Source: Mycobacterium kiyosense | GTDB taxonomy: Bacteria > Actinomycetota > Actinomycetes > Mycobacteriales > Mycobacteriaceae | Assembly: GCA_021654635.1 (NCBI GenBank) | Contig: AP025179.1 | Span: 2,356,001-2,420,000 of the forward strand | Direction of reading: 5' to 3' | Length of the DNA stretch: 64,000 nucleotides | In this document: positions 30,028 through 54,863 of the stretch, piece by piece | How positions within the stretch are numbered: position 1 is the first letter of the stretch | How the letters are laid out: every line of letters begins with the position of its first letter | Made by a program: the position numbers and the translations under genes | The notes under the pieces: generated by a model | Database searches by the model: none | Seen by the model: only the letters and a program-made list of their open reading frames with translations | What the model was told of the DNA's origin: nothing

Positions 30028-33000
30028 TCAACAACCAGCAGCCCCTCGTCCTCTTCTTTCAGCCGATCTCTTGGCGGTCTTCAGCCGCGCATCGAGAAAA
30101 TCTGCGACCGATGGGTTCGCCACAATCTGCTTCTCGCCGTCGGCCGCTCGGCGCGCCCAGTGATGATTGGACCGTTCGAACACCACAGTGTGCCTTGGGT
30201 CCGTGCCGATCAACATTCTGCGCGTTAACAAGATTCGGCCGTTATCGCGAGCTTCACTGCGCGTAGGCGGGCGAGACGACATACATGCTGGGCAAAGCCA
30301 CAGATTTCTGTACGGTTCGCGAATGCAACGCTTGCAGATCGGGACTGCGCAGCAATCGCATAGCACGACCTTATCGACGCACAGCGCACAGGTTACGTCG
30401 CTGCAGTAACTGCATTCTGTGATTTCCAGCCCGAAATGTCCCTCGCGATCGATGAATCCGGAGTCCAGCAGAGCACCTGTGCCGAAGTCGCTGCGGCGGC
30501 CTTCGACCTCGCCGGGGGCGAGCTTGCTCTCGTAAAGCCAAGTTTGGCCACTAATCATCGTCGCCAATTGTTGGATATGAGCTCCAATGTCGAGACGCGT
30601 CCAGTCGGATACAGGGACGTGCAGTTGCTGCAGCTCGGCGCGGAATGCATTGGGGAGCGCACGTAGCTTAGGAATGCGAGTGATGTCCGATATCCCCCAG
30701 GCAGACAAAGCGCCGGCGCTGGCATCACCTGTGGCGCGCGGCGCCGTCTTCAGAACTCCGAGTGGCTTCACGCTAAGAGAAATCTTGGCTGCGTTTGCCA
30801 CCGTCGAAATTCTGATTTCCGCGGGATCAGTGAATATGCCGATCTGGTCAGCGTCGCCAAGGGCAATCGACCGTGACAGTGCGGTGGAGGCGGGAGCGTC
30901 TGGGGACGCGACGATCGCGTACCACTCGGTGTGATCGATCGTGCGAATGCCAAGAGCGGCAAGCGATGCCATGGTCACAATCACGGCGTCGGTATCACCA
31001 AGCGCTGCATGCGCTCTAACTACCGGGACGGGTTCCCATTCATCCGCAATCCACTCAAATGTACTGCCGGGAAGTGCCCAGGTTGCTAGACCTTGACGCT
31101 CGGAAGATCCTTCGAAGGTAGCGCTATAGATGCCTGCAGACGTGACTGCCAATGAATATCCGAAGCGATCCCATCTCGCGACCAGCGGAAAGATTTTGGG
31201 CCTTCGCATGCCGTTAAAGATTGCGCCGACCGGCTGAGGCACAGTGTGCGCAGGCTCCGGCAATTGTCCGAGCGGAGGGAACTCGTCGGCAAGGATTGCG
31301 CAGAGTTCTCCATCGGGAGTCTTGAATGACTTTGGACTGCAGCCCGAAACTTCGAGCTCCTCGACTGACCACCCCGGCCTGAAGGATCGTTCCGACTGAA
31401 TATCTAAGTAAGATTCAGCGATGGGTTGTTCCGGTCGAAGTGGAGTGACTATAGGTGCGATCTGAACTCCGAACAGCGCACTTGCGGCGAGGCGCAGTCG
31501 ATAGCTGGCGTCAATGTTGTTCCTGCCGTAAGCAATCCAGCTGTCGATGGATCCGTTGCGTACGATTGCCTTCTCGAAGACTTCTCCCCTGTTGACGAGG
31601 ACCACAAGGGCGTCACTGTCTTTGCCGATGAGGGCGCGGGCGCCGCGAGCTACCAGGTCCTTTGGTAGGTTGGCCAATTCGTTGTCCGTAGCCGGACGTA
31701 GTTCGTCGCATGCGCCACAAATGTCTCCGCGACGGCAGAACGCGCACATGACGCGTTGGCACCTGGCGCAAGGGACAACAGAAGGATCACGTCCACAGTC
31801 TGAGCAGGCGTGATCACCGCACAGCACGCAGATGCTCGGCGGTGCTGTGTGCTCAGACGATAAGCATCGTCGGCAAACGGATGCTGAGCAGCTGAGGCAT
31901 GGCATGGTCGCTAAATGTTCGACACCGTCACAGGCCCGGCACGCCCAGGTTTGGCACGCGTCGCAGAATGCAGCCGTGCCTACCTCATAGAAGTGTCCAT
32001 CTCGGCACACGCCGAAATCCATTGAGGGGGGGTCCCGCTGTCGCTCAATACAGGGGGGATGCGGCTCGCCGTTGAATGTTCGGTACGAATGAACCGCAGT
32101 GCCGTGTCCGCGCCATCGCTCGACGACTTCGAACCCGTTGAGCACCACTGCGGTGAAAGACCGCACGGCATGCTTCTGTAATGCCCGGCCCAACGAGGGA
32201 AGAAGTGGTGAAAACGCTTGAGCGGCAGTGATATCGAGAGACAATCCTAGCTTCTTGAGTGAGGCAACATCGGCTGGCATCAATACCGTGGTCGAATCGG
32301 GTTCGGCCAGGACCGAGATTGGCTCGATTTTTCGGCTGGCGAGTTGGCACTCTGACGGAGACGGGAAGTGACCAGTGATATTCAAGGCTTCGTCGGCTCG
32401 CTTTGCGAGGCGCCCCCCCGGGCATGCCTAGTGATTGGAGGCGGTCAAAGCACGCAAGTTGTAGCGCAAGCGACCGTGCGTCGGGGCAAGAGTGCCATTG
32501 AGCAGGGGGGATCAGAGTCAATTTGCCCTTCCACATATGTGGATACAACTACCGCATCATTCCGGCGTTGCAGAGCGACGAGCGCATCACTTATCACCAC
32601 CTCGGCAAGCACGTCGCTATCAAGAGAGGGTTCGCGCCAAACAAGGTGAGCTTCTTGCCGATTGTTCAGTATCATTCCGCCACCGTCTGCAACCGTGACT
32701 GTCTCTCTGACTACTCGGTCGGCCTCCAAGTAGATGTCGACGAATTTGGAGCGGCGAGTGACTATGACTGCCGGTGGTGGTGGTGGGGGGACTTCAGTGC
32801 GGAGTTTTCGGAGAAACGAATTCGCATTAAACTCCCGCTCGGAGGACACTCTTACTTCGGGGTGGTGTGGCAGCTCGTTCAGTGCCGCGGGTTCGATGGA
32901 CGTGGAGTGCGCCGGAATAACCGCATACTCAACGGACACCGCCGCCGCCGTTGCCAGTCGCGTGCGCGAGGGATCTCCCACATCGGAGCGCTCGGTATAA

Positions 33001-36000
33001 TCGCGCAAAACCAATCCCGCATCGAGTGTGAGACCATTTGCTGCTGCGTATGAACGCATTTGGGCCCGATAGTGGTCATTCGCATCCTCGTCACGAACAA
33101 GATTTATCGGCTGCGATCCGTTGCGATGCAATGTCGCAACTCGTTCGCCGACCAGCAAAACAGCTCCGGCGTTAATCCGCCAAGCTATCGCTGACTCGTC
33201 ATCTAATTCGGGAGCACGTTGCGCAGCGGCACAGTTCCGGCACAACCCGCCGCTCACTCGTCGGCAGCCGTTACAGCAAGTCAGGCTACAGAGAGGACAT
33301 TCTTTGAAGAGTGCGTCATCGCCGCACGCGCTGCACAGATACTGATCGCAGGACTGGCAGTGGGCCGTCTCGGAAGCGTCCACCCAATGGGAATCTGAGC
33401 ACAATGCCAGTACGCTAATACTTTCCGAGCTAGCATCACTAATCACTAGGGGTGCTTCCCGGCAGCTCTGGTCCCACTCATAAGTGAGCGTTCCCTCAGC
33501 GCCGTTCGGTCCCGACCAGCATTCCTCGACTAACCAGTCGTCCTCGTCGAGGACGACAGCGAGCAGCTTGGCCCGAGCACGAATGTCAGGGCGTCGGCTG
33601 AGTCGCTTCTCCTCGGAGCGTAACGCTCGTTCCAAACGGGCCCGGTCGTCGGGAGCAGCTTCGGCGATCTGCGCCGTGTAACCTTTACGGATCCTCTTGA
33701 ACTCTGCTGCTTGAACGGCTTCGACTTGCTTAACCCTCTCGCCGCGTAGCGCTTCAAGCTGCCTTGCAGCGGCCTTCTCGAAGTCCACGATAATCTTGGC
33801 CGGGATATCGAACGCGGGTGGCAAAGTTTCTCCGTCTTGGAGGGGTCGGCGAGGCAACCGTCTTTCGTTGTGTCCGTTCACCTCTGCGGTGATGAGATGC
33901 TCCGTTGTCTCGGCCTCGCCGATCGTCGACCGGAACGTCGCCTGCCCGCTCCACGATCCCGACGGCACCAGCCGACGTCCTCGAAGGGTCATGGTGGGCG
34001 CATGCTCGAACGGGGTCGGGCCGATGTCATCTGGAATTACAGGGACGGTCGCATGCATGTCACCGCGCATACGTAACAGCCCAAGAAGTTCATCGAATAC
34101 AGGGGAGCCGACAGCGCAGAGCTCGGCATCAGGATGTTGTTCGAGTCCAAGCCGGTCGAATGCCAGATGCAACAATGTTCGACCACCTAGCTCGTCTGTA
34201 AACTCCTCACCGAATTGCGCTGTGAGGAAGGCGCCTTCACCTGCGCCTGTGTCGTGTACCAGCTCGGCATCCAGGGCTTGCAGCACACTCCTTGTCCACT
34301 TCTGCACGCGCCGTTGTCGCCTTCGCGACCGCTCACTCACTTCAGGGGCAAGTTCGGTGGTGCCAGCCTTTGAAAGCCCCTTGCGATGCTCGAAAGCCGA
34401 ATTCATCCAGCTGCTTAGGCCGCTGTCGGCGGCTATCAGAGTGGACGCGCTTTTGCGTGCCTGTTCCAACTCGGCACCGAGCTGGTTGAGGAGTCCTTCC
34501 ATCTTGCTGTCGGTGTTTGCGAACAGCGCTTCTAGTACACGGGCTTCGAACGTCGCAGACTTGGCATCGTCCAGTTCACCGAGGATTGTGGTGACCTGTC
34601 CGAACAACAGCTCGAACATCCGCAGCTTTTCGGCTAATAGGCGATACACACTTTCGTCGATTGTGCGCTGTGCGTAGAGGTTCGCAATAAACACTTCATC
34701 TTTGGGCTGAGTTAACCGGTCGACACGTCCGATGCGCTGCTCGATCCGCATGGGATTCCAGGGCAGGTCAAAGTTCAGCACGCAGTTGCAGAACTGCAGG
34801 TTCTGTCCCTCTGCGCCGGCATCCGTGGAGATCATAATCGGTGCGTCTCCCGACCTGAAGGCAGCGATGGTGGTGGCGCGCTCGCCGGCCGACATGGCCC
34901 CATGAAACGAACGCGCCTTCAGTCCCTCGGCTTCCATGCGCCGGAGCAAACCGGTGACGGTGTCTGTGTGTTGGGTGAAGATGAGTACGCGACCGTGTTC
35001 ACGGAGCCAATTACGCGTTATTTCAAGAGCTTTGTTTTCGCGCGCAGAGCCCACGATGTCCATCGCGAAATGGCCGACTTCGTTCAGGACGGAACGAACT
35101 CGTGCATCACGATGTCGTTCTGCCATCCGCAACGCGGATGTGCCCATCGAGAACGGGCTCGCAGTCAGCCGGAGCGCCAGACTGCGCCGACGCATGGCGT
35201 CACCCGGATCGCGCATGACATTGCGCAGCAGATCGGTGCTCAGTGTGTACAGCTCGCGCTCGCGCGGTCCGAGGTCGACTGGTACGTCCACGGCACGCCG
35301 CACCACCCGATCTACTCCGGCTTGCGCGCGCGTAGTTCGTATCATCGCGCTGCTTATCAGGCGACGAAGCGCCGCAGGATCATCTGGGGTGCGCGGGTCG
35401 TAAGAGCGCATGAACTGTCGTTTGAACTCATTGAGTGAGGTAAAGGTGCCAGGTCGAAGCAGCTCGATAAGACGGTAGAGCTCGAGCAAGTCGTTCTGCA
35501 CGGGCGTGGCCGTTAGGAAAAAGGCGTACCTGCACGCCGTGGTAAGGGAGGTAATGAGGTCGCGAGTCTTACGCGCCCCCGCGCTCGCGGCGCGATGAGC
35601 TTCATCGATAATGACTATGTCCCAAGGCTTTTCCGTTAGCCTGTCGGCGACGTTGCGGCCCAGCGTCAGGCTTAAGATCAGTTTTTCCTGTTTCTGTACC
35701 TCAGATCCTCGGTATGCCACCTCGAAAGATATGTCGAATTTCTGCTGCATCTCCTCGCGCCATTGGTCGCGAAGGGGAGCCGGACACAGGATGAGGACAC
35801 GCCTAGCCAGACCGCGCAGCGTGAGTTCCTTGATTGCCAGCCCAGCTTCGATTGTCTTGCCGAGACCAACTTCATCGGCTAGGACTGCACGCCCTCGAAG
35901 GCGCGACAATGCGTGGCGAGCCACAGCCTCCTGGTGTGGCATGCGGTCGACATTGGCGACATCGACGGCAAGAAGCTCCTCGAAATCATCGAGAGTCGCG

Positions 36001-36512
36001 AGTTCCTCGCCTTGAAGGCGGAGTTCCACAATCTCTAAAGGGTCGAATCCTGCCGCTTTCAGTTGATCGCCGAGGAGTGCACGGGCTTCCTTGAGAAATC
36101 CTATTGTTTGGTTTGCAGTCCAGTCATATTCAGTGTCCGCGTGGAACTGACGATCGACCGTGCGTCTACGAGCCGCTTTGGATCTGCTCGTTTTTGTGGT
36201 TAAAGTGTTTGGCTTGGTTTGGGTGATCCGGATAGGAGTTCCGGGCGGGAGCAACTCCAAACGGTATACGTCGTCCACTTTTCGAAGCCGGAGTAGCCCA
36301 CCGTCTTGCCCGTAATCTTGCAGTCGCTCGATAAGAATGTCCCCTGTGAGCTGGCGACCCCGCCCACTCCATTGGGCGTGAAAGGCCTCTCCGTCGAGCT
36401 CCAGGACGACGGAGGAGCTGTGGGCTGGCAGGGTAAGCGCGACGGATTCACGCTCAGTCAGAGTAAGTTCGCCAGTCTCCAGCAGTTGATGAGTAATTCT
36501 TTTCTCAATCAT
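30028..36512 (-). CDS. Giant RapA/SNF2 helicase with three cysteine-rich zinc modules (two frameshifts in this sequence)
   Basis: Reconstructed as one 2160-residue protein. Residues ~1-1000 are a SNF2 ATPase: Walker A DEVGLGKT (~213-220), DEAH (~305), LTATPVQND, and motif VI QRIGRVDR. Cysteine-rich modules follow at ~1038-1094, ~1502-1601 and ~2035-2085, each with many CxxC pairs and followed by a similar beta-rich segment. The frame is broken at 32506-32511 (G6, needs 5) and 32411-32418 (C7, needs 6). Removing one base at each joins IDSDPP-AQWHSCPDARSL and LGMPGG-RLAKRADEAL, and the span becomes exactly 2161 codons. Read as given, it is 1355- and 785-residue proteins. Start overlaps the upstream helicase gene by 8 bp. 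Role inferred: DNA translocase of a defence system. Confidence 0.75.
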
Positions 36513-39500
36513 TGTGTGACACCGCGATTCCTAGTGTTTGAGCCCCAGTCGAAGTCAGAGACAGGGTGTCGTAGGAACTTCGCGAGCTTTCGCGTTCGAC
36601 GATGCGACGTTCTACAAGACCATCCGACAGCAGCTTGTTCAGTGCCTCGTGCCAGCGCTTCTCCCCATTTCGTACGTGACGCAAGGCGCCGAACTGAGGG
36701 CAACTGAGTACACCTGCACCGAGAGGGCGTCCTTCGCCCAAGGATTCCTTGCCAAGGACCGCAGCGCGTAGGCTCGCTTCGCCATAGGATCCGCGCCGGT
36801 ACGACGAGGCCCAGGCGATGGCCTGAAGCACAGTGAGTTCAGCGTTCACCAGCAACTCGGGGTCGGGGACCAAGTGGTCGGCAAGGGTCGTCCATGGCGG
36901 TGACTCTTGACTGCAGCGGTCGCAGGGTGCGATGTTCCGGCTTGTGCAATCGGCGATCTGGTCTCCGAAGTGCGTTCCGATGACGACCCGTCGGCAATCC
37001 GACTGATTTGTGGCGTAGGCGATCATCGCTTTGAGGCGACGCTGCTGCCACAGCTTCCACCTGGCAGACTCTCGTTCCAGTGCGGGGCGGGATGCAACTC
37101 TAGCCAGCAGATGGACCCGGCGAAGCCGACGAGAACTCGAGAACGTCACGAGGCGGTCGAGGGACCAGTCAATCAGCTTTCGTTCTAACGTGTCTGGCTC
37201 ATAACCACGCTGATCATAGAGCTGTTGGAAGTCCAGTTGAACGCGGACATTAGGGCGGGCTCGATTCGCCTTATAGAACAGTTCGCGGAACAGCCTTCTA
37301 TCACTTTCTTCCGTTGGCTCTCGTGAACCGACTTCGACGGTGCCCCGCGCTGAACAATCGAGGCCCAGGCGCAGTGCGTTGACGCGTTCGAGTTGGGCTA
37401 AGTGGACGTTGATTTCGTCGTCACTGATGCCGAGCTTGTCGGCAACCTCGTCGATGTCAAATACCCTGCTCTCACCACGTTGCGGACATCGCCAAAGTTC
37501 GCTCAGCAGTTGTTGGGTGATGGCTGCGTCTGACTTCGATTCATGCCCATCGACCAAACTGCGTCGACGAGCAATATCAGCTCTCGTGTACAGCAGTAAG
37601 CACTCGCCGATGACATCGCGGGCTCGTGCCGCCCTCCCGGCCTCCTGCGCGTAGCCATCGAGTGAGTCCGGCAGGTCGTAGTGAACCACCCACGCAATAT
37701 TGGGCTTGTTGATGCCCATGCCGAATGCTTTGGTAGCAACGATGATTCGGGTGGTGTCTGAGTCGAAGTCTTCCTGGACAGCGTCTCGCTGTTCGGGGAC
37801 CATGCCTGCGTGGTACGCCCTCGCGGCGTGACCCGCCCGCCGTAGAACGGCTGCGACTTCCTCGGCGAGTGCACGTTTCGAGACATAAACGATGCCGGGA
37901 TTGCTGCCCGACCACGTGACGAACCGCAGAAGTTCTCGAAGTCGGTCCCTCCCGTCGGCGCATTCGTGGACTCGGAACCGCAAATTAGGCCGGTCGCTGG
38001 GTTCGCGCACCGTGAGAGGATTGTGCATGTCCATGGCCGCTACGATGTCGACCTCCACCTCAGGAGTGGCCGTTGCAGTCAATCCAATACGTGATGGGCG
38101 TGTCTCGAAAGTCGCGACTGACGCCGGTACCTGCCGGAATTCGGGCCGAAAATCGTGACCCCATACCGAAACACAATGCGCCTCGTCCACTACGACTCCG
38201 TTGAGTTGCTGGCGTCCGAGCGCGCCACGCAGGACCGGATCACGGGCCAGTCGTTCAGGTGAGACATAGAGAAGACGAACCTGACCACTGGCGGTGTCAC
38301 GGAGTATTTCTATCTGGACTACCCGTGAAGTGGAGCCGATGATTCCTTGCACCGGCCTGATACCTCGGCGGCCGCGCAGCTCATTGACTTGGTCTTTGAT
38401 CAGCGCGACCAGCGGTGAGACGACGACAGTGGCCCGTGCTTGGGGGGCCAGCAAGGCCGGCAGTTGGAAGCAGACGGATTTGCCGAAGCCGGTTGGCAGA
38501 ACGGCGAGAACATCGTTGCCTGCAGCGATCGCGCACATCACCTCCAGCTGCTTGGCGTGGAGATCAGTGATGCCAAATAGTTTCTCGGCAGCCTCGATGA
38601 ATTTCGGCACAGGGTCCTCTCCCTCAACGAGGCGCAGGCTTTCCAACAGCTGACTGACGTCGTCGCGTCCGAACGAAATTGCCGCAGTCAGGTCAGGTGC
38701 AGCGCCAGTGACGAATTCGATCGCGCGCGTCCATGCGTCGTCGCGGTCGACCGCCTCGTGGATCGTAGGGTCGGGTAGTGAGCCGAGGAGGACGCGCTGT
38801 GCTTGTGTCGGTGAGTGCAGTCGGCGGTCGCACACAAGTGCGGCACCTCGGTCGGTTTCGGATCTGATCAGACGTCCGAATCCCTGAGTGAACTGCATCG
38901 CTGTCAGGGGGAGGACGTAGTCGAGGAAGGGGTCATCGCCCCGCTCGGCGATTGCGCGTTGGCGTGCGGATACCAGAGGATCATCCGGGTGTGGATATGG
39001 GGGCTTCTCGATGAAGAGATACGACAATGTTTCGCCCGGTGCGTCGAATCCTTCCCAATACGACTTTAACCCGTACAGCACTGTGCCCGGCTCGGCTTTG
39101 AACCGCTGTGCAATCTGGCTGCGTCCCTGCTCACCTTGGACGAGTAGTTCGACCCCCCCGTTCGGCAAGTTCGGCGGATTTGGTCCGAACGGCATCGGCC
39201 ACCGCCTCCATGCGTACTCGCGCCGCGAAGAGTGTGAGGGTCTTTCCACCGGACAGCGACAGAAAACCGGTCTGGTCGGCGGCCATCTCCTCACAGAACT
39301 CACGTTCATTGACCGGTATCGGGATGGGCAGGTGGTTGGTCAGTATGACGACCGATTGCTGCTGATAATCGAACGGAGACGCGAGCCGAAGTGCACGAAA
39401 CACGCCGTCAGCGGGTTGCGGGTCGATGCGGATACCCAATCTTGAGGCGATGTAGTCGAAGCGGCGCTCGACGGTCAACGTCGCCGAACAAAGCACCGTC

Positions 39501-41734
39501 GAATGCGTCCTGTCGACCACTGACTGTTGAAACGCGGGGAATACGTGAATCGGCAGCCGTTCGAAACTCCAAGCGGCGGAATCATCCTCGTCTGTGCTGA
39601 GCCGATAAACCCACAGGTGTCCGTCAGGTAGCGGCCCCAACGTGTAAAGGAGATTGATGGCGGCGTCGACTCGCTCCGAGTATCCATCAAGCCGTCGTTT
39701 GGCTGACGCGGCACCGGCCACTTGGTCCAGCGAGTGGCGAAGAGAAGTAATGGCTTTCGCGAATTGAATCAGGTTGTATCGAACCGAGGATGCGGCCTGC
39801 CGAAGTGCTCTGAACTCGGGGCGACTATCGACAAGTCCGGAACGGAGGACCGCCGTATCGGTCTTTCCGCCGTATTCATGTAGATATGTGTTGATTGCGG
39901 ACGCAAGGTCGGCAGCGCTCAATCGGACGGCGCTGGAGCCCGTGGCAAGTTGTTGAATGGCATGGTCTGTTGACTGATCTCTACCAGTGCGGCAACGGAT
40001 TTCACGAATCAGTTTCGACCGGGGAGATAGAGAGTTGACAAGGATCTCGAGCTCCACGGCATCGACTCGTTCTGTCCACGCAGCTGTCAAAGAGTTCCTC
40101 TAGAGCGTGAGCCTCGTCAAAGACCAGATCGGCGCGCCCCTCAGCGAGAACGTCGCCTGGAGCCTGACTTACCTTGACCCACGCTGCGATTAGTGCGTGG
40201 TTCACCGACACGACACCCGGGGATCCGCTGATGTCGTTGATCTGCTGGACGAGAGGACATACAGTGGCCCACTTGCAGTGGGAGCGTTCGCAGCCCGCGG
40301 CGGTGGTCCGTAACCGAGCACGTGTGCGCGCGTAACGGATGTCCGCGCGTCGAATGACGTCGTCGGTAACGTCATCCCAGGTGCCGTTGGGAGACTGGGC
40401 TATTGCCCGCATCGCGACGGCGATGCTGAACCCCGAGGCTTCCTGGTCCGGCAACACGTCCTCGAGCTCACGTGCGCAGACATAGTTGTTGACCCCTTGG
40501 AGCTGTCGGAATGGGGCGCTTAGCAGACCCTCTTTCTGCAGGGCCGCGGCCTCCTCTCGAAGCTGTCCCTGGAGCGCTCTTGTTGCGGTCGCGATTACGA
40601 CCGGTTGTCGCGGTCTAGATGCCCGCCCGAGAGCCGGCAGAAGGTAAGCCAGTGATTTGCCCGTGCCAGTCGGTGCTTCGACAGCGAGTCTTCCGCCGCC
40701 GTCAAGCACCTCAGCTACCGCTTGGGCCATCTCCTGTTGACTCGGGCGGGGCCGGAGTCCGCGACGCTGTCGGAGCAGCGGAAAAGTGTCGCGAGTCCCT
40801 GACCACGCATCGGAGGATGGGGGGAGCGGTCGGGGTCAGCAGAGGGTCAAGAGGTCGAGTCAGTTGGGACAGGTCGGGTGCTGATTGGAGTCTCGGTAAA
40901 AGCAATGCCAAAGGATGATGGTGCGTTTCGAGGATCGCGACAGCTAGCTGCCAGCTAGCCTCAGCCATGTCGACTTCGTCAAGAAGTCTGGTGACGACCG
41001 CTGCCGTCGTCATGGCGTTGGATACGGCAAGGTGGGGTGCCTCATTAGTGACCCCATACCGCTGTGCGAGGTCGGCAAGCTGACGGTTCGGAAGCGAGAT
41101 ATCGACCAATAGCGAAAGGTCGATGCTGTCGGCGCTCTGGGGGGAATGGTGGGTATTGAAGTCCCTCGCGATCCGCAGCGCGCTTGAGGAACGGCAGGTC
41201 GAAGGCAAGCAGATTGTGGCCAATAAGCAAGTCCACGTCCTGTAACCGGGTAGTAAGGACGCGTACCGCATCGGCAAGCAGGAGTGCGTCTGCTGAGCTA
41301 GAGACGTTACCCGGGTGAGCAATTACGACGTCCAGGAGGATTGTGCCGTCGAGCCCCACGAGGGCTAGTTCGGTAATAAAGTCGGTAGTGCGATTTAGGC
41401 CGCTCGTTTCCAAATCCAGCACCGCGACTCGGTCGCGCGGAACCCGCACGGGTTGGGCGACATACCAGTCATCACTGGCTGCGTCATTGTCGTCTATGTC
41501 GACTGAGTGCGATTCGACGCCTCTAGGCTCTGCGCAGTGCAGGAGCCCCCCGGAAGTCACACCAAAGTGTTGCGGGAAGCGATCGGGCCATTGCTGAATC
41601 CGTTCAAGAGGCTGAGCGAAGCCCTCTTTGCGGAGCCGTTCACGAAGCTCGACCGCGGACAAAGGTCCGTGGTCGGCGAGTATTTGATGGGCTGCCTCGG
41701 CTGCCGGATGCAGTGTGCGCCGCGGTTCCGTCAA
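36505..41734 (-). CDS. DEDD exonuclease-DinG helicase-RecQ helicase fusion (four frameshifts in this sequence)
   Basis: Reconstructed as one 1741-residue protein (1742 codons after removing one base at each of ~41140, ~40820, ~40090 and ~39155, all in base runs). Order: winged-helix-like N-terminus; DEDD exonuclease (LDLETSG ~103, GHNLLAFDLPF ~180, third motif near 238 with Asn for the last Asp); XPD/DinG helicase (TGTGKS ~351, four Fe-S cysteines ~418-490, DEAH ~541, QGFGRLIR); RecQ helicase (TGFGKS ~1080, DEAH ~1180, QEAGRAAR) with a four-cysteine zinc site ~1580-1600. Exonuclease-DinG fusion is known in Gram-positives. The added RecQ is unusual. The last 8 bp overlap the SNF2 gene, so the two are one operon. 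Confidence 0.78.
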
Positions 41735-42532: not shown

Positions 42533-44185
42533 ATGACCACCACCGAAACGCCACGCCTGAACAACGGCGCCGAACGCTGCATCTATCACACCCTGCTCGA
42601 TCAGCTGCAGCCCGACGACCTAGTCGTCGCCAACCAGCGTGTCACCGACCATCTCAAAGACCACGAGGTCGACTTCGTGGTGGCCATCGAGGGCGCCGGC
42701 ATCGCCTGCTTGGAGGTCAAGGGCGGTGAGGTGTGGCACGACGGTGACGGTTGGTGCCAATACCGCGGCGGCAAACAAGTGCGCATCGAACCGATCCGCC
42801 AAGCCCGCGAAGCCTGCTACGCGCTCAGAAACTACGTCGAGAGCGACCCTCGATGGACCCAGGGGCGGCTGCGCTGGGATCATTTCGTCGTCCTACCCAA
42901 TACCGAGCTCCCGAAAGACTTTTCGCTGCCGGAGTGCCCGCGGTGGAAGATCTTCGACCGCACCGACCTACCCAGCCTCGCCCACCAGCTTCGCCACATC
43001 CTCATCCGCCAAGAGCTCGATCGGCCACTGCTCACCCAGGACGGGATCGGCCAGCTGACCACCGTGCTCATCGGCAGGGGACTGCCGCAGCGCGACGTCG
43101 TGGCCCGCGCCCTGGCTCACGAGGACGCCGCCGACACGCTCACCGGGCATCAGTCCGTCATCCTCGATGCCATCCGACTCATCAATCGTGTCGAGGTGCG
43201 CGGCGGTGCCGGCAGCGGCAAGACCTTCCTGGCCATCGAGCAGGCGCGCCGGCTCGCGCAACAAGGTCAGCGCGTCGCGCTGGTCTGCTACTCCCACGGC
43301 CTGGCGTCCTACCTCGAGCGCATCAGCGCCGCCTGGCCCCGCCGCCAGCAGCCGGCCTACGTCGGGGAGTTCCACGCCCTCGGCGTCCTGTGGGGTGCGC
43401 CCGAGGGGCCCGACGAATCGCTGCGCAACGAGCAGACCGTCCAGTTCTGGGAGCACGACCTGCCGCAGCAGATGGCTGATCTCGCAGCACAATTGGAGCC
43501 GGGCCACCGCTACGACTCGATCGTCGTCGACGAAGCCCAGGACTTCGCCGACGCGTGGTGGGACCCGCTGCTGGCCGCCCTGAAAGACGACGAGACGGGT
43601 GGGCTGTACGTCTTCAGCGACGAGGGTCAGCGGGTGTTCAACCGCCATGGCTCGCCGCCCGTTCCGCTGGTGCCGTTGATTCTCGACCACAACGTGCGCA
43701 ACACCAGACAGATCGCCACCGCATTCCAGCCGCTGGTCGATCACCCGATGCGCTTCCTCGGCGGCGACGGACCTGCCGTGAAGTTCGTGGCCTGCACACG
43801 GGAGGACGCCCTGAACGCCGGCGACGACGAAGTCGAGCTACTCCTAGAGGAAGGATGGCGCCCCGAAGACGTCGCCCTGCTGACCACCGGCAGCCGACAT
43901 CCCGAGCAAAAGGAACGCCAGGCTGCCGGCAACGCCGCCTACTGGGACAGCTTCTGGGATGCCGAGCAGGTGTTCTACGGCCACGTCCTGGGCTTCAAGG
44001 GCTTGGAGCGGCGAGCGGTGGTCCTCGTCGTCAACGAGGCTGCGGCGTTCGAGCGCTCCCGCGAACGGCTCTACGTGGGGCTGTCCCGCGCACGCGACCA
44101 ACTCGTGGTCTGCGGCGACCCGGACTTCATCCGCGAAGTCGGTGGACCGGATCTCGCCCGCCGACTAGGTGTCCCATCCAGCTAG
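42533..44185 (+). CDS. NERD nuclease-domain UvrD-like SF1 helicase
   Basis: 550 residues. N-terminal NERD domain (residues ~10-120): EVDFVVAIEG and CLEVKGG carry the acidic residues and lysine of this restriction-like nuclease fold. SF1 helicase: Walker A RGGAGSGKTF (~224), DEAQDF (~335), LDHNVRNTRQIA (~383) and YVGLSRARDQLVV (~520). It is short, with no obvious 2B insertion. The start ATG 42533 follows an AAGGGGG stretch. Such NERD-UvrD proteins are common in islands. It is probably a nucleic-acid processing effector. Confidence 0.85.
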   Translation: MTTTETPRLNNGAERCIYHTLLDQLQPDDLVVANQRVTDHLKDHEVDFVVAIEGAGIACLEVKGGEVWHDGDGWCQYRGGKQVRIEPIRQAREACYALRNYVESDPRWTQGRLRWDHFVVLPNTELPKDFSLPECPRWKIFDRTDLPSLAHQLRHILIRQELDRPLLTQDGIGQLTTVLIGRGLPQRDVVARALAHEDAADTLTGHQSVILDAIRLINRVEVRGGAGSGKTFLAIEQARRLAQQGQRVALVCYSHGLASYLERISAAWPRRQQPAYVGEFHALGVLWGAPEGPDESLRNEQTVQFWEHDLPQQMADLAAQLEPGHRYDSIVVDEAQDFADAWWDPLLAALKDDETGGLYVFSDEGQRVFNRHGSPPVPLVPLILDHNVRNTRQIATAFQPLVDHPMRFLGGDGPAVKFVACTREDALNAGDDEVELLLEEGWRPEDVALLTTGSRHPEQKERQAAGNAAYWDSFWDAEQVFYGHVLGFKGLERRAVVLVVNEAAAFERSRERLYVGLSRARDQLVVCGDPDFIREVGGPDLARRLGVPSS

Positions 44186-44572: not shown

Positions 44573-45280
44573 TCAGTCGGTATCGCGAGGCATGGTCAGT
44601 TGACCTCTCCGGCGACGTCGGGCCGGCGGTGAGCCGCGCCGGAACTTCTGAGCGGGTCGACCTCTGCCCTCGTTGACGAAAGTGCCCGTAGGTTGGATCA
44701 GGGGCTCCATCAGGCGCCGGAATGCATCGCGGTCCAGGTTGTGCCCGGCCACCGCTTCATGCGCGCTGCGCAGCTCGCGCAAGGTGAATTCCTCGCCGAG
44801 CAGTCCGTCCGGGTCGGGTCGATCGACGTAGCGGGCCCGCAGGTCTGCCAGGGCGTACTCCACTATCTCCGGGTGGTCGTAGGGGAGTTTCCCCGGGTCG
44901 CGCGCCAGGGCCAAGGTAGTGCGCTCCGACGAACGCGACTCCAGTTGATGCGGCTGCACGACCTGGATATGCGCGACCGACAGCACCCAGCCGCGTTTGT
45001 CGCGACCCGGCTTGTCAAACACCTGGAGTTGGCGCGGCCGCAACCCGCGGATGTTGGCCTTGTCCTGCAGGCAACGGTCGACAGCATGCGCGAGTCGCTC
45101 CCTGTCGTGGAGAAAAGTTCCTGGCAGCGCCCACCCACGACCGCTAGGTCGACGGACCAGCAGAACCACTAACTCGTTGTCGGCGTCCAGGCTGAGCACG
45201 GCGGTGTCCACGGCGACGGACGGCTGGGGATAGTCCTCCAGCGCCTTGCCGTGGGAGTCGATGTACTTGTGATCGGTCAT
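44573..45280 (-). CDS. NrtR-like Nudix-domain transcriptional regulator
   Basis: 235 residues. An N-terminal Nudix-fold domain (VAVDTAVLSLDADNELVVLLVRRP, WALPGTFLHDRERL) has lost the REUXEE catalytic glutamates, as NrtR regulators do. The C-terminal part (LRELRSAHEAV, RDAFRRLMEPLI) is the winged helix. NrtR proteins sense ADP-ribose or NAD metabolites and control NAD metabolism. It is divergent from the ADP-ribosylglycohydrolase gene with a perfect inverted repeat between the two, consistent with direct control of that gene. Confidence 0.82.
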   Translation of the reverse strand: MTDHKYIDSHGKALEDYPQPSVAVDTAVLSLDADNELVVLLVRRPSGRGWALPGTFLHDRERLAHAVDRCLQDKANIRGLRPRQLQVFDKPGRDKRGWVLSVAHIQVVQPHQLESRSSERTTLALARDPGKLPYDHPEIVEYALADLRARYVDRPDPDGLLGEEFTLRELRSAHEAVAGHNLDRDAFRRLMEPLIQPTGTFVNEGRGRPAQKFRRGSPPARRRRRGQLTMPRDTD

Positions 45281-45322
45281 GTCGGTGCCTCAGAGTACAG
45301 TGCAGGTATATAGAGCGCTTAG

Positions 45323-45349
45323 CGCAATAAATGGTGTATGATTATTGCG
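45323..45349. promoter_or_regulatory. Inverted repeat, candidate NrtR operator
   Basis: CGCAATAA (45323-45330) and TTATTGCG (45342-45349) are perfect reverse complements with an 11-bp spacer. They are centred one helical turn apart in the A/T-rich region between the NrtR-like gene and the ADP-ribosylglycohydrolase gene. Confidence 0.65.
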
Positions 45350-45392
45350 GATCGCGCGTAAAATCGGACCGGCGTAGAAGGAGATGGTGGCC

Positions 45393-46841
45393 ATGGCTGC
45401 ATATGACGACAGGTTTGAAGGTGCACTGCTGGGCATGGCAGCGGGCGACGCCCTGGGTGCGCCTTACGAATTCGGGCCACCGCGCGGGCTCGACAAGGAG
45501 GTCGCGATGGTCGGCGGCCGCGGCTGGGAGGTCGGGGAGTGGACCGACGACACCGCGATGGCGATCGCCATTGCAGAAGTCGCCGCGACCGGCGCAGATC
45601 TGCGCGAGGAGTCCGCGCAGGACGCGATCGTCACCCGCTGGCTGCAATGGTCGAGGAACACCAAAGACATTGGGCTCCAGACTTCTTCGGTTCTGCGCGC
45701 CGCCACCCGGGATGGCGCGATCACGGCTGAGCGTGCCCGAACCCAGTCGCAGGCACTACATGCGCGAACCGGCCGCAGCGGCGGCAACGGTTCGCTGATG
45801 CGCACCGCACCGGTCGCCCTGGCCCACATCGACGACGAGGACGCGATGGTGCACGCCGCAACAGCGATCAGCCAGCTCACCCACTGGGAGCCGGATGCGG
45901 GCGAAGCCTGCATCATTTGGTGCGCGGCCATCCGCCACGCGGTGCTCACCGGCGAACTCGATGCCCGCATCGGGCTGCGCCACCTCGAGCCCGCACGGCA
46001 TGAGCTTTGGGCACAACGACTCGATGCGGCTGAGGCGGCACCGCCGTCGTTCTTCGCCAATAACGGGTGGGTGGTGTCGGCGCTGCAGGCCGCGTGGTCG
46101 GCCATCAGCACCACGCCGGTGCCGGCCGACGACCCTGGCGCCGGTGTGTTTCGGGCCGACCATCTCCGCCGCGGAATCGATGCCGCGGTACGGGCGGGTC
46201 ATGACACCGACACCGTCGCGGCGATCGCAGGAGCACTGCTAGGGGCGGCCTACGGTGCGTCCGCGGTTCCGCTCGAGTGGCGCCAGCTGCTCAACGGCTG
46301 GCCGAGCCTCGACGCGCGTGGCTTGGTCAAGCTCGCCAATGCGATTAAGCGCCAAGGGAAGCCAGACACTTTCGACTACACCTACCCGGGCTCGCCCGTC
46401 GACACGTTCGCCCGGCACCCGTACGACGACCGAGTCCTGCTCGGCGGGATCGGGGCCTTGCGTCAGCTGCGTTCGGAGGTCGATGCGGTTGTCTCGCTGT
46501 GCCTGCTGGCCGACGACGACGTCCGCAACGACATGCCGCACGTCGAGGTGCGCCTGATCGACCGGGTCGGTCGCGACGAAAATCCGCACTTGGATTACGT
46601 GCTGCTGGACGCAGTGCGCGCCGTCGAGCAGTTACGGGCCGAGGGCCGCACGGTGCTGGTGCACTGCGTCGGGGCCTACAGCCGCACCCCGACCATCGGG
46701 GCGCTGTACGGAGCGCGCCTGCGCAGCGTGGCCGTCGACACGGCGCTGCGTGATGTCACGGCGGTGTTGCCCAATGCGCATCCCAACGCTGACTTCCGGA
46801 ACGCGTTGCGGCGCTTGAGGAGGTGCAGCCATGAGCGCTGA
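45393..46841 (+). CDS. ADP-ribosylglycohydrolase fused to a dual-specificity phosphatase domain
   Basis: 482 residues. ATG 45393 is preferred because AAGGAG at 45378-45383 gives a 9-bp spacing; the upstream ATG 45384 would abut it. Residues ~1-300 form a DraG/ARH domain: GMAAGDALGAPYE, the metal motif WTDDTAMA (~50) and AGHDTDTVAAIAGALLGA (~275). Residues ~340-480 form a cysteine phosphatase-like domain with HCVGAYSRT, matching HCxxxxxRT of dual-specificity phosphatases. It would remove ADP-ribose from proteins or free metabolites and possibly process a phosphorylated product. Divergent from NrtR. Confidence 0.85.
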   Translation: MAAYDDRFEGALLGMAAGDALGAPYEFGPPRGLDKEVAMVGGRGWEVGEWTDDTAMAIAIAEVAATGADLREESAQDAIVTRWLQWSRNTKDIGLQTSSVLRAATRDGAITAERARTQSQALHARTGRSGGNGSLMRTAPVALAHIDDEDAMVHAATAISQLTHWEPDAGEACIIWCAAIRHAVLTGELDARIGLRHLEPARHELWAQRLDAAEAAPPSFFANNGWVVSALQAAWSAISTTPVPADDPGAGVFRADHLRRGIDAAVRAGHDTDTVAAIAGALLGAAYGASAVPLEWRQLLNGWPSLDARGLVKLANAIKRQGKPDTFDYTYPGSPVDTFARHPYDDRVLLGGIGALRQLRSEVDAVVSLCLLADDDVRNDMPHVEVRLIDRVGRDENPHLDYVLLDAVRAVEQLRAEGRTVLVHCVGAYSRTPTIGALYGARLRSVAVDTALRDVTAVLPNAHPNADFRNALRRLRRCSHER

Positions 46842-47127: not shown

Positions 47128-48017
47128 TCAACCTGACTCAGGACCACTGTGACGGCTTGATTCGGGACCACCTCGGCGAGGAGGTGGTGGCTCAGGCGTC
47201 TTCGTAGGCTGTGATCGCGAGCTGCTACCGCGGGTATGGCTGAGCCGGTATGAGGTGGTGCCGGTTTCGATGATGGTGCCGTGGAAGGTGAGTCGGTCGA
47301 CGATCGCGGCGCAGAGTCGGGGGTCGGTGAAGGTTTTGGTCCAGCCGGAGAAACTCTCGTTGGATGCGATGGCTACTGACGCCTTTTCCTCGCGTTCAGT
47401 GAGTACTTGGAACAGCAACTCCGCGCCCCGGCGGTCGAGTTCCATGTAGCCGAGTTCGTCGATACATAAAGATCGACGCGGCCGTAGCGGGCGATCGTGC
47501 GGGCGAGTTGCTTTTCATCGGCGGCCTCGACGAGTTCGTTGACCAGTTTGGTCGCCAGTGTGTAGCGGACGCGGAAGCCTTGCTCGGCGGCGGCGGTGCC
47601 CACACCAATGAGCAGGTGGGACTTGCCGGTGCCCGAGTCGCCGATCAGGCAGAGCGGGTCGCCTCGGCGTATCCAATCGCCTTGGGCGACGGTATGTACG
47701 GTGGCGGCGTTGATGTTTGGGTTGGCGTCGAAATCGAAGTCGCCCAACCATTTCTGACGTGGAAACCCGGCCGCTGCGACTCGCCGCAAGGTGGATCGGC
47801 GGTCCCGGTCATCGCATTCGGCCAGGAGCAGTTCGGCGAGGAAGCCGTGGTAGGTGAGCTGTTCACGCTCGGCGACTTTCACTGCTTCGTCGATCACCGC
47901 ACGCACGGTCGGCAACCGCAGGCGTCGGCATGCGGAATCGACGGCGGCTTGGGCCGCTTGTGGGGTCATCCCGCGTTGGCGGCGCAGGGTGTTGGTGACT
48001 TTCGTGGCCGTGCTCAT
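47128..48017 (-). CDS. istB: IS21 helper ATPase IstB (frameshifted in this sequence)
   Basis: The corrected length is 296 residues. An AAA+ domain carries Walker A GDSGTGKSHL (~120); the normal continuation DLLCIDELGYMELDRRGAELLFQ is interrupted at about 47468-47471 by one missing T. Downstream sequence (VAIASNESFSGW to SYRLSHT) matches the C-terminal half. IstB assists IstA in transposition. Its stop is in the left terminal repeat. The ATGA overlap with istA is normal for IS21. Confidence 0.8.
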
Positions 48018-49690
48018 GATCCAGTCGTTCCTTCCATTCCGTCACCGGGTGGCGGTGTTGGGGGTCTGCGTTGGAGCAGCTCGTCGTAGGCCGCGACGTC
48101 AGGCAGCGGCCGGGTGTCGGGTGGCAGGCCGGCGATCACGGTCGCTGGATCAGCCAGGCGGCGCTGGGTCAGACTGACGACCCGGTAATCGACGGTATTG
48201 GCATGGTTACCGGCGTGACGGTCTGATTCGAGACCACCACCGGCGGCATGCAGGCGTGCTTCGACCGCGACCACATCCGCTGAAACGGCACCGACCGACA
48301 GGGCGGCGTGGATCCCGGCGATCACATCGGTAGCGCGCATGCTGCGGTGCAGCAGCAGCACGTCGATTAGCGAGCGAGTCCCGCCAGCATCGCCGTCGAC
48401 GCGGCGGGCCTGCTGCCAGAACGCCTCGTGCGCTGCGGTGAAAGTGCCGGCGGCGCGGGCCTGAGCAAGCGCGGTGGAGCCGGGCAACGCGCCGGGTTTG
48501 CAGTGCAACACCTCCAGATAGTGGTCGAGGTTGATCGATTGCCCGTTGCGGGTCGTGACGCGTTCATGGCGTGCGGCGATAGTGCGGCCGTCGAAGACGA
48601 CCAACTCCGAGGCCCGCAGCGACACCCTGACTTTGCGTCCGATCAACCGGGCGGGAACCGAGTACTTCGCCGACCGCGCCGTGATCAGCGCCGACCGGTC
48701 CACCCGTGGATGCAGCACCAGCCCCGGGTCGAACCGCTCGGCAGGCAGAGCGGCGAGATGTTCTCGTTCGGTCTGGAAGTCCTGGCCCACGGTGTGCAGC
48801 CGGCCGGTGACCCGCCGATGATCCTCACGTGCTTCGCAGCGGCGGATGTAGTCGTTGAGCTCTGACAGCGAGTCCACTTCCGGCATGGGCGTGAGCCAGG
48901 TGCGGCGGAAACGTCCGATCTCGCCCTCGACTCCGCCTTTCTCGTGGGCGCCTTTCACTCCCGGCTGGCAGTAGAACGGGTCGAACCCGTAGAACGATCT
49001 GAACAGCACCCACCGGTCGTTCTCGACCCTGCCCCGACCGCGGCCGAACACCACCGAGGTGACCGCAGACTTCAAGTTGTCGTAGCGGATATGGCGCACC
49101 GGGATGCCGCCGATCACGTCGAATGCTTCGATGTGGCCTTCGAGGAACGCCTCCTGCGACTGAGTCGCATACACCCGATGGACTGCCTTGCCGGACATCG
49201 ACATTCGAAAAACGAACATGTAGCAGCGGGTTCTGACACCAGCGAGGATGACGTGAACCTCGCCGAAATCAACCTCAGCTTCAGCGCCGGGCGGGTGTTC
49301 CTGCGGCACGAACGCTTCCTGCGCCTGCTTACCGGACTCGGCGATGATCTCCGCACGACGGACCCGGACATAGTCACGCACCGACGAATACGACACATCC
49401 TCAACGCCGTGTTCATCGGCCAGACGATTGCAAATCCTTGTCGCAGTGTGGCGTTGCTTGCGGGGCGCATCCAGATCGGTCCGCAGCATCGCATCAATCG
49501 CAGGTTTGAGCGGGCCCAGTTTCGGCGACTCCCGCACCGGTGTCTTCCGCCTCGGCGGCTCCGGATTCGCCAACGCGTGCCGGACCGTATCCCGGCCAAC
49601 CTTGTACTTACGAGCAAGCGCCCGAATACCCAAACCCTCGACCCGGGCGTCCCTACGTATCTGGGCGAACAGCTCCACACGACTTCCCAT
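48014..49690 (-). CDS. istA: IS21-family transposase IstA
   Basis: 558 residues. The N-terminal helix-turn-helix (IRALARKYKVGRDTVRHAL) binds the ends. The rve/DDE catalytic domain starts near 140: EVDFGEV supplies the first Asp, RYDNLKSAV the second and KGAHEKGGVEGEIG (near 250) the Glu. The C-terminal Mu-type beta barrel follows (FDGRTIAARHERV). Intact, so the element's transposase may be active while its istB copy here is interrupted. Confidence 0.92.
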   Translation of the reverse strand: MGSRVELFAQIRRDARVEGLGIRALARKYKVGRDTVRHALANPEPPRRKTPVRESPKLGPLKPAIDAMLRTDLDAPRKQRHTATRICNRLADEHGVEDVSYSSVRDYVRVRRAEIIAESGKQAQEAFVPQEHPPGAEAEVDFGEVHVILAGVRTRCYMFVFRMSMSGKAVHRVYATQSQEAFLEGHIEAFDVIGGIPVRHIRYDNLKSAVTSVVFGRGRGRVENDRWVLFRSFYGFDPFYCQPGVKGAHEKGGVEGEIGRFRRTWLTPMPEVDSLSELNDYIRRCEAREDHRRVTGRLHTVGQDFQTEREHLAALPAERFDPGLVLHPRVDRSALITARSAKYSVPARLIGRKVRVSLRASELVVFDGRTIAARHERVTTRNGQSINLDHYLEVLHCKPGALPGSTALAQARAAGTFTAAHEAFWQQARRVDGDAGGTRSLIDVLLLHRSMRATDVIAGIHAALSVGAVSADVVAVEARLHAAGGGLESDRHAGNHANTVDYRVVSLTQRRLADPATVIAGLPPDTRPLPDVAAYDELLQRRPPTPPPGDGMEGTTGS

Positions 49691-53270: not shown

Positions 53271-54863
53271 TCAGTTGTACGCCGTGCTCCCCGCCACCGG
53301 ATGCGTCGTGCTGATCAGCTTCGCGATACAGTGATCCCGGTCGAATCCTCTACTGCTGCACCAACTCAACGCGCCCTGGGCATCGCCGAACGTATAGCCC
53401 GCAATCGTCACCCAGTAGTTGGACTCGGAGAAGGTCGACCAGTCACCGGACCACAGCAGCTTGGCGTTGTACAGGCTCCGCAGCCGCTCGTGCTCCCGCA
53501 GCGCCATCGCGTTGTCCCACGCGACGCCGCCTTCGATCGTCCCGGGACGCTTGGAGCTGAGCTGGGGAACCCACCTATTCATCGCATCCGACGCGACGAC
53601 CGAGCGATCGAGATTCACGTACTGCCTCAGCTGCACTTCGGCATCCTGAACCTGCGCGGCGGTGGTCGTTGGAACCGCGACCGAACGCGTCGTCGTCGGC
53701 GGCGTCGTCTGGTAACTCGGCTGAGCCGTCGTCTCAGAGGTGGACTGAAGAGCAGGTTGCGTCGAGGGGGGATAGGCAACAGCAGGCGAGGGATTATCCG
53801 AACCAGAGTTCTGATTCGCGACCACGGCGACCGCGAGCACGATCACGACCACTACAAGTGTGGCTGCGACCGCGACCAACGCTGGCACCAGATAACGTCG
53901 TGAATCCTGCTGCGGCGGCATCGTTAAAAGCGTTGGCGCAGAATTGAACTGCGCGTTGAAGTGCTGGTGATCACGCGGCGGTGGCGGTGGCGGCTGGTAC
54001 TGCGAGGCGTACACCGTGTCCTCGGTCGCCGAGGTCGGCCGCGGCGCCGTCAGCGCCCGCTTGGCTGCCCGGGCCAACGCCCCGGCGCTGCCGTAGCGGT
54101 CGTCGGGATGCTTGGCCATCCCGCGCGCGATCACCTCGTCGAGTGCCGCCGGAACCGCCGACCTGGCCATACTGGGTCGCGGCGGCGGCGCGGACAGGTG
54201 AGCCGCGATGACCTGCTGGGCGGTACCGACGAACGGCTGACGGCCGGTCAACGTCTCGTAGAGGACGCAGGCCAGTGCGTAGATGTCCACGGCCGGCGTG
54301 GCGGGCGCATCGCTGTTGAGCCGCTCGGGTGCCATGTAGGCGAAGCTGCCCACCTGGTAGCCCGTCATGGTCAGATGGCTCTCGCCCGGCGCCTCGGCGA
54401 TGCCGAAGTCGACCAGGTAGGCGAAATCGTCGGGCGTGACCATGATGTTCTGCGGCTTGACGTCGCGGTGGATCAACGCTTTGGCGTGCGCGGCATCCAG
54501 CGCCGCCGCGACCTGGCTGATGATCTCGACCGCCCGCTCCGGCGTGAGCATCCGCTTGGCGAGGATGTCGTGCAGGGTCTCGCCCTGCACCAGTCGCATG
54601 TCGATATAAAGCGTGTGGTCGATCTCGCCCCAGTCGTGAATCGGAATGACATGCGGCTCTTGCAGAATCGCCGCCGCGTGCGACTCGCGCAGGAACCGCT
54701 CCCGGAACGTCGCGTCGTCGGCGAACTGGTCGGTGAGCACCTTGAGCGCGACAGCCCTTCGCTTGTCGGTATCGAACGCCTCGTACACCTCACCCATGCC
54801 GCCCTTGCCGAGCAGCCGGTTGACTTCGTACTTCCCGAACGTCCCGCCCACGAGTGTCTTCAT
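53271..54863 (-). CDS. Receptor-type Ser/Thr protein kinase
   Basis: 530 residues from ATG 54863, since the frame upstream adds 44 unrelated residues. The kinase domain (1-270) has LGKGGMGEVYEAFD, ALK, HRDVKPQNIMV, VDFGIAEA and YMAPERL. A Pro/Gln linker follows, then one membrane helix (LVPALVAVAATLVVVVIVLAVAVV) near residue 345. The external domain is Thr/Ser-rich, ending in a cysteine-bearing ~130-residue part. It is active by motif. Substrate unknown. Confidence 0.9.
   Translation of the reverse strand: MKTLVGGTFGKYEVNRLLGKGGMGEVYEAFDTDKRRAVALKVLTDQFADDATFRERFLRESHAAAILQEPHVIPIHDWGEIDHTLYIDMRLVQGETLHDILAKRMLTPERAVEIISQVAAALDAAHAKALIHRDVKPQNIMVTPDDFAYLVDFGIAEAPGESHLTMTGYQVGSFAYMAPERLNSDAPATPAVDIYALACVLYETLTGRQPFVGTAQQVIAAHLSAPPPRPSMARSAVPAALDEVIARGMAKHPDDRYGSAGALARAAKRALTAPRPTSATEDTVYASQYQPPPPPPRDHQHFNAQFNSAPTLLTMPPQQDSRRYLVPALVAVAATLVVVVIVLAVAVVANQNSGSDNPSPAVAYPPSTQPALQSTSETTAQPSYQTTPPTTTRSVAVPTTTAAQVQDAEVQLRQYVNLDRSVVASDAMNRWVPQLSSKRPGTIEGGVAWDNAMALREHERLRSLYNAKLLWSGDWSTFSESNYWVTIAGYTFGDAQGALSWCSSRGFDRDHCIAKLISTTHPVAGSTAYN

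Follow-up and report, generated by a model that had tools for sequence, protein, structure and literature searches.

What might a mycobacterium gain from a single protein chain that joins an exonuclease to two different helicases, and from a second giant ATPase encoded directly behind it? The question arises from a 64,000-nucleotide stretch of Mycobacterium kiyosense DNA, hereafter the window (G000:C1:2356001-2420000), which lies in a 6.35-Mb single-contig genome. Two genes fill its minus strand from 41734 to 30028: gene 1 (41734-36505) and gene 2 (36512-30028), the end of the former at 36505 and the start of the latter at 36512 giving the 8-bp overlap that an earlier note on this DNA had described. 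On balance, we regard this pair as an accessory, horizontally transferred two-gene system against invading DNA, whether phage or plasmid, with a single-chain dual-motor helicase at its core. The defence function, the polarity of the motors, the role of the partner and the substrate are what we infer here.

Both genes are frame-broken in the window, gene 1 into five open pieces in shifting frames and gene 2 into two long ones, and they were analysed as unmended pieces alongside intact relatives. Alignment with intact relatives recovers the six breaks counted in the earlier note, four in gene 1 (five frame segments) and two in gene 2 (three frame segments). The second break in gene 2 is revealed by a 31-residue middle segment that is identical to the relative at 16 of 29 positions in its own frame, whereas the next frame gives 7 of 27 and contains a stop. 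A codon-based scan for frame breaks yielded 16 candidates in 400 kb of the window's genome and 8 in an equal length of G477; since operon codon use differs, the operon's own breaks escaped it, and it carries little weight.

Elsewhere the fusion is intact. Gene 1 is one stop-free open frame in all 20 relatives that carry it, and is 1736-1800 codons long where present among 19 fetched relatives, 15 of which encode a gene 2 of 2142-2153 codons (both lengths counted from the start of the longest open reading frame (ORF)); for the window copies the earlier note had given 1742 and 2161 codons after correction of the breaks. Protein searches returned at least 158 homologues of gene 1 at E ≤ 1e-100 and at least 679 of gene 2 at E ≤ 1e-60. 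Furthermore, the protein P0138 is an unbroken gene 1 product of 1717 amino acids (aa), which is identical to window pieces 1-5 at 99.4% (over 174 aa, 41045-41734), 100% (over 108 aa, 40711-41322), 99.5%, 99.7% and 99.7%, and whose source may be a different assembly of the same strain or of a closely related one. Because gene 1 forms a single open frame in 20 of 20 relatives, has at least 158 homologues and is spanned across all five pieces by P0138, the fusion is real and not confined to this assembly. That it should be an assembly artefact with no existence of its own, as the broken frames of the window copy alone might suggest, is virtually impossible.

Gene 1 opens with a short N-terminal region and then encodes, in order, a DEDDh exonuclease, an iron–sulphur (Fe-S) XPD/DinG helicase, a RecQ helicase with a zinc site and a C-terminal region; model matches, motifs and intact relatives all bear out the three enzyme domains that the earlier note had proposed. 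On the minus strand, piece 1 (41045-41734) holds the N-terminal region and the first part of the exonuclease, with motif I at 41399-41428 and motif II at 41186-41221, and piece 2 (40711-41322) holds its end, with motif III at 41011-41040, where Asn replaces the last catalytic Asp. In these broken pieces the exonuclease reaches 20.9 bits against a Pfam cut-off of 24 and 30 bits with a PADLOC DEDDh model; PF00929 is present in most intact gene 1 relatives. The XPD/DinG helicase is encoded in piece 3 (minus strand, 40002-40730), with Walker A at 40653-40676, Fe-S cysteines at 40464-40481 and 40257-40295 and a DEAH box at 40107-40121. It continues through piece 4 (minus strand, 39131-40090), where its middle matches YoaA/DinG models, and ends in piece 5 (minus strand, 36505-39309), which carries DinG motif VI at 38863-38886. 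The DinG/YoaA equivalogs score at most 143.5 bits per broken piece against NCBIfam cut-offs of 547.7-789, figures that refer to the pieces and not to the intact chain. Piece 5 also contains a complete RecQ helicase, with Walker A at 38476-38496, DEAH at 38149-38193 and motif VI at 37624-37647, followed by the RecQ zinc motif at 36913-36996 and the C-terminal region. Here the scores lie above the cut-offs (TIGR00614, 345.5 bits for piece 36505-39309 against 219.8; zinc-binding PF16124, 36.3 bits against 25), and the RecQ part aligns with solved RecQ, BLM and WRN sequences.

Gene 2 runs from an N-terminal region through a RapA/DrmD-like SNF2 ATPase into a long C-terminal half and contains three cysteine clusters, in keeping with its earlier description as a RapA/SNF2-like ATPase with zinc modules. 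Piece 1 (minus strand, 32445-36512) carries the N-terminal region, the SNF2 Walker A at 35853-35876, motif VI at 34716-34739 and the first cysteine cluster at 33231-33401. Piece 2 (minus strand, 30028-32385) carries the C-terminal half with the second (31708-31998) and third (30283-30441) clusters, and it matches no Pfam, NCBIfam or PADLOC family. In the intact gene 2 of locus L055, 19 CxxC pairs fall into three groups of 5, 9 and 5; the first and second cluster regions resemble each other, which suggests internal repeats. The C-terminal 1195 residues of the L055 protein give a predicted structure that is locally confident (predicted local distance difference test, pLDDT, 87.7), with no clear match in the PDB. 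The second half of the window's gene 2 is less than 50% identical to that of L035.

Catalytic residues separate the motors from the exonuclease. We checked 120 gene 1 relatives, comprising 100 proteins and a further 20 set apart for having no Pfam exonuclease match. All 120, P0138 included, retain the four Fe-S cysteines and, in each motor, the Walker A lysine and the DEAH Asp-Glu pair, and the window pieces show the same XPD/DinG Fe-S and superfamily 2 (SF2) motifs. By contrast, the five DEDDh residues (D, E, D, H, D) are all present in 80 of the 100, incomplete in 20 and complete in none of the 20 set apart (P0216, P0218-P0232, P0234, P0235, P0237 and P0240), which have lost the catalytic residues of the exonuclease and kept those of the motors. 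The named members of this group all come from genera of the Micromonosporaceae. Since 16 of the 20 incomplete exonucleases among the 100 sit in full-length proteins without gaps at the catalytic sites, the changes are not solely truncations. In the window lineage the last DEDDh Asp is Asn, and this residue is native, because P0138 carries the same Asn. Judged by these residues, the two motors form an invariant core, and the exonuclease has decayed more than once.

The two genes travel together. Across a genus sample of 248 genomes, with thresholds of E ≤ 1e-250 for gene 1 and E ≤ 1e-150 for gene 2, both occur in the same 21 genomes (Fisher p 6e-31, ignoring kinship). Gene 2 directly follows gene 1 in 17 of 19 fetched loci, with an overlap of 4 or 8 bp in 16 of the coupled loci and a larger one in a locus whose longest-ORF start is uncertain. 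In the other two, about 2.6 kb lies between the genes (L046, genome G381), or gene 2 is shortened and gene 1 is about 16 kb away (L053, genome G370). Inserted genes separate the pair at both of these loci and the gene 2 alignment starts at residue 302 or 60; they are perhaps natural knock-outs.

Phylogenetic analyses indicate that this shared occurrence reflects shared movement. Trees and distances were computed for 19 of the 21 genomes, excluding G334 (gene 2 match over two contigs) and G370 (disrupted pair). The pairwise distances of the two genes correlate with each other at 0.876, and with those of rpoB at only 0.449 (gene 1) and 0.584 (gene 2). In the rpoB tree the window genome groups with G300 and G513 (support 100/99); in the operon trees it groups with G477, G319, G381 and G312 (gene 1, 95/90; gene 2, 85/88). 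Approximately unbiased (AU) tests reject the rpoB group with the operon data (p 9e-5 and 5.5e-4) and the operon group with the rpoB data (p 6e-61), and a second pair of tree groups agrees, making six tests in all with p ≤ 0.00055; the groups were picked after tree inspection, so these p-values are optimistic. As the gene 1 and gene 2 trees largely agree with each other and reject the rpoB groupings, the pair moved horizontally as a unit, with a history that is partly vertical.

The pair also sits in a defence island. Its GC content is 0.592, whereas 20 random stretches from the genome it lies in average 0.668, and none of 180 11.7-kb windows is as low; across 18 relatives the operon averages 0.625 and its flanks 0.630, against 0.678 in random G477 stretches. 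We compared 69 complete ORFs of 200 aa or more, drawn from the neighbourhoods of 19 loci, with PADLOC at 1e-15. Their matches covered 207 families: five of the ORFs hit type IV restriction enzymes, three hit methylases, and BrxHI and PsyrT were hit by two each. A set of 69 ORFs sampled from 267 in random stretches of a single genome, G477, gave 33 families with one member each, so that the contrast is clear and its size inexact. Pfam matches among the neighbours, counted with no Pfam control set, comprise three GmrSD, one NaeI, one JetD and one McrBC. Patchy distribution, horizontal transfer and an island location, traits expected of anti-invader defence systems, are all found in the pair, as the earlier note had anticipated in predicting a conserved pair in variable islands. 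Its suggestion of an anti-phage or plasmid-processing machine fares more unevenly: a conserved, mobile pair among defence genes is in its favour, but degradation by the exonuclease is not the common function, since that domain is often catalytically incomplete.

The DinG-RecQ fusion itself extends well beyond this pairing. From at least 375 relatives, a scan of named genomes retained 80 loci, and ORF analysis of 32 of these together with three plasmid loci revealed five arrangements around the fusion. In type A the partner is the SNF2-zinc protein, as in mycobacteria, Planosporangium (L072) and one Acidimicrobiales contig (L059, with two cysteine clusters); protein searches show that Micromonospora also possess both gene 1 and gene 2 proteins. 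Type B, found in 11 of 14 distant fusion loci, places a gene for a UvrD-like superfamily 1 (SF1) helicase, mostly of about 600 aa, directly behind the fusion and in the same orientation, either overlapping it or 0-322 bp away. Eight of these 11 loci come from metagenome-assembled genomes named as members of Acidimicrobiia and three from ones named 'bacterium'; the remaining three of the 14 are Chloroflexi, one of them ended by the contig end. The type B helicase matches PADLOC 'NERD+UvrD' (1.1e-39), best in its helicase part, and Pfam shows no NERD domain in it.

Type C combines a fusion of about 2000 aa with a protein of about 750 aa that belongs to no known family and an AAA ATPase, mostly of 1900-2100 aa, whose motifs look STAND-like. 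It occurs at 10 loci of Streptomyces, Kitasatospora, Amycolatopsis, Nonomuraea and Catenulispora (L087 9491-23703, L079, L093, L095, L098, L100, L105, L110, L112 and L127). In the type C protein tested, that of L087, the exonuclease match is PolC-like and weak (28.7 bits), whereas a Pfam exonuclease is present in the tested fusion proteins of types B, D and E. Type D is represented by plasmid pTT27 of Thermus thermophilus HB27, a tractable laboratory strain (L178 10678-18544), where the fusion is accompanied by genes for 280, 180 and 514 aa; genes of similar size are found on the two other plasmids examined. The HB27 fusion is flanked, 4-8 kb to either side, by type I-C and III-B genes of clustered regularly interspaced short palindromic repeats (CRISPR) systems, and its 514-aa neighbour is annotated as a BglG antiterminator, without Pfam support. 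In type E, an upstream gene of 335-456 aa precedes the fusion in two Chloroflexi (27% identical, E 3e-30). In a 396-genome phylum-wide sample at E ≤ 1e-90, the only match joining DinG and RecQ parts, besides the split matches of the window itself, was in G793; in G780 a RecQ match lies within an open frame of 1757 codons. Type A is thus rare, and type C would miss this threshold.

Among 50,697 phage records there was no match at 1e-60, and the 20 viral-contig loci that matched did so in the RecQ part only; on these results we rejected a phage or prophage origin.

How far does the pair resemble systems that already have a name? The earlier note could name none, and among the matches listed for the broken pieces, PADLOC and NCBIfam return helicase or exonuclease domains only, leaving the zinc half of gene 2 unmatched. 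The triple fusion, however, already has a precedent: a DnaQ-DinG-RecQ protein of T. thermophilus HB27 was called a unique fusion protein in 2005 (PMC1274311), which, in the part accessible to us, gives it neither a function nor a system. That protein (WP_011174436.1, 1649 aa) has the same domain order (RNase_T, DEAD/Helicase_C_2, DEAD/Helicase_C, RecQ_Zn_bind), but it is about 31% identical where aligned and has different neighbours, of 280, 180 and 514 aa. In the open-access literature searched we found no account of the pair as a system, PMC1274311 being the sole relevant paper; the accessible portions of PMC5512222, PMC5529391, PMC13316683 and PMC9122126 do not describe it as one.

Resemblances to established systems are confined to single parts. 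The SNF2 core of gene 2 scores 237.6 bits with DrmD_b of DISARM and 246.4 bits with a BrxHI model of BREX, but for piece 32445-36512 the values of 231.0 and 237.6 bits lie below the NCBIfam DrmD cut-offs of 610 and 950, and the zinc half is unmatched. The DISARM core consists of a helicase with DUF1998, a PLD protein and a methylase, and that of BREX includes PglZ; no DISARM or BREX core gene was found among the 10 window neighbour ORFs scanned (Pfam, 1e-5). Druantia III, which is not known to have a DinG-RecQ fusion, reaches the RecQ piece with its DruE model at only 18.6 bits among the matches listed. It does share the format of a two-gene defence system (DruH and DruE) with a large helicase, and has been studied in a mycobacterium, as the accessible part of PMC13316683 describes. 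Dpd likewise pairs an SNF2 protein (DpdE) with a RecQ-like helicase (DpdF), but the window pair scores below both cut-offs (DpdF 196.9 against 550 bits, DpdE 191.3 against 500). The Dpd models are not known to include a DinG or exonuclease part. DinG proteins with an N-terminal exonuclease (TIGR01407, PRK08074) correspond to the first half of gene 1 and differ in lacking both the RecQ part and the SNF2 partner. RapA (PRK04914, 193.2 bits against 576) and Csf4/DinG (TIGR03117, 47 bits for broken piece 40002-40730 against 400) are also below cut-off. With DrmD, DpdE, DpdF, RapA and Csf4 all far below their cut-offs, the pair is best classed as a putative multi-helicase defence system outside any named one.

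A functional parallel may be RecBCD, a helicase-nuclease with two motors of opposite polarity on two strands. In RecBCD and AdnAB the motors are of SF1 and on separate subunits, whereas here a single chain holds SF2 motors and a nuclease of DEDDh rather than RecB type. DinG/XPD helicases move 5'-3', and the mycobacterial RecQ-like helicase RqlH reportedly moves 3'-5', so the dual helicase is probably bipolar, its opposite polarity resting on known families. In the mechanism we propose, the DinG and RecQ motors of gene 1 would each engage one strand, so that the chain moves one way on duplex DNA, much as RecBCD does with two subunits. The DEDDh exonuclease, where intact, would trim an opened strand and would be dispensable. 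Gene 2, as an SNF2-type duplex translocase, may recruit or license gene 1, its three cysteine clusters probably reading the target or holding the complex together, and in other lineages a different partner would fill its place. The likely outcome would be that invader DNA ends or replication intermediates are unwound, with or without degradation; with the exonuclease dead in some lineages, unwinding itself would have to be the effect there. As no linked methylase is constant, recognition probably proceeds through DNA structure or sensing by the partner. More tentatively, and as a possibility that we put forward rather than favour, the DinG-RecQ chain could be the invariant core of an undescribed defence superfamily, a bipolar SF2 dual-motor and single-chain counterpart of RecBCD with exchangeable sensor or licensing partners (SNF2-zinc, SF1 helicase, STAND-like ATPase with the 750-aa protein, coiled-coil-like proteins) that unwinds invader DNA even with a dead nuclease.

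Several observations weigh against a role in defence. The window's own copy of the pair is frame-broken, both motors have ordinary repair enzymes as close relatives, and the genes around the fusion on two Thermales plasmids are metabolic or housekeeping ones. Operon distances retain a significant correlation with those of rpoB (Mantel p 0.0004 and 0.0002), which makes the history of the operon partly that of its hosts. The argument from the island is one of guilt by association: of the five restriction-enzyme neighbours, four are 76-88% identical to one another and so not independent, the PADLOC control comes from one genome and the Pfam counts have none. In addition, with no nuclease invariably active and no linked methylase constant, discrimination of self from non-self is left unexplained. 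An accessory machine for DNA repair or replication restart, WRN- or DinG-like and helping its host in some strains, would fit the membership of RecQ and DinG in repair helicase families, the matches of the RecQ part to RecQ, BLM and WRN (WRN itself being an exonuclease-RecQ protein) and the reverse gyrase that adjoins the operon on one Thermus plasmid. We consider it unlikely given the patchy presence in 21 of 248 genomes, the horizontal transfer as a unit, the neighbours rich in restriction and defence genes and the partners that vary with lineage.

The target could also be chiefly incoming plasmid or transforming DNA, unwound or degraded on entry, and not phage. A DinG helicase also features in type IV CRISPR systems (PADLOC typeIV_DinG matches), no phage record matched at 1e-60, as described above, and Thermus is naturally competent; a relative of the fusion in Thermaceae is nevertheless itself plasmid-borne, and the neighbours are mostly restriction-type systems, which makes such a specialization improbable. 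A different question is whether the system, real elsewhere, has decayed to a non-functional remnant in this strain. Six frame breaks fall within 11.7 kb, against none in the 13 other conserved genes tested in the window's genome, all of which are unbroken, with rpoB open. On the other side stand the near-identical, unbroken P0138 and the retention of 326 of 330 family-invariant residues in the window pieces (17 intact relatives show 0-5 changes each), so that decay seems rather doubtful; it would in any case bear on this copy alone. A two-gene defence system against invading DNA thus continues to be the reading that we prefer for the family.

Around the operon, the window contains further genes that may belong to the island. 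Divergent from gene 1 lies a 550-aa NERD nuclease-UvrD helicase gene (plus strand, 42533-44185), an island neighbour and not a fixed component. It was considered as a third component in view of the type B helicases, and is present in 75 of 248 genus genomes: 13 of the 21 that carry the pair and 62 of the 227 that lack it (p 0.002, ignoring kinship). In 12 of the 13 genomes that have both, they share a contig and lie 6-144 kb apart. On these grounds, and with a match of about 25% to the distant UvrD-like proteins, we rejected it as a third component in the genus; it perhaps marks a shared mycobacterial defence hotspot. An NrtR-type winged-helix gene stands beside an ADP-ribosylglycohydrolase-phosphatase fusion at 44573-46841, and the latter is likewise near the pair in L057 and G309. 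An IS21-type istB gene and a Mu-transposase-like (istA-like) gene (minus strand, 47373-49690) adjoin the island. An 802-aa SMC/RecN-like ATPase (plus strand, 49907-52315) and a Ser/Thr kinase (minus strand, 53271-54995) are possibly further island genes. The codon-use scan also placed candidate frame breaks outside the operon at window positions 4448, 6552 and 47463.

Multi-helicase systems such as DISARM, BREX, Zorya and Druantia guard bacterial genomes by mechanisms that are largely open. If our reading is true, the pair adds to them a family in which a single chain unites two recognisable motors, presumably of opposite polarity, and whose relatives in Actinomycetota, Chloroflexota and Thermaceae stand beside different partner genes. 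Its invariant motors and dispensable exonuclease pose the question of whether unwinding alone may stop an invader.

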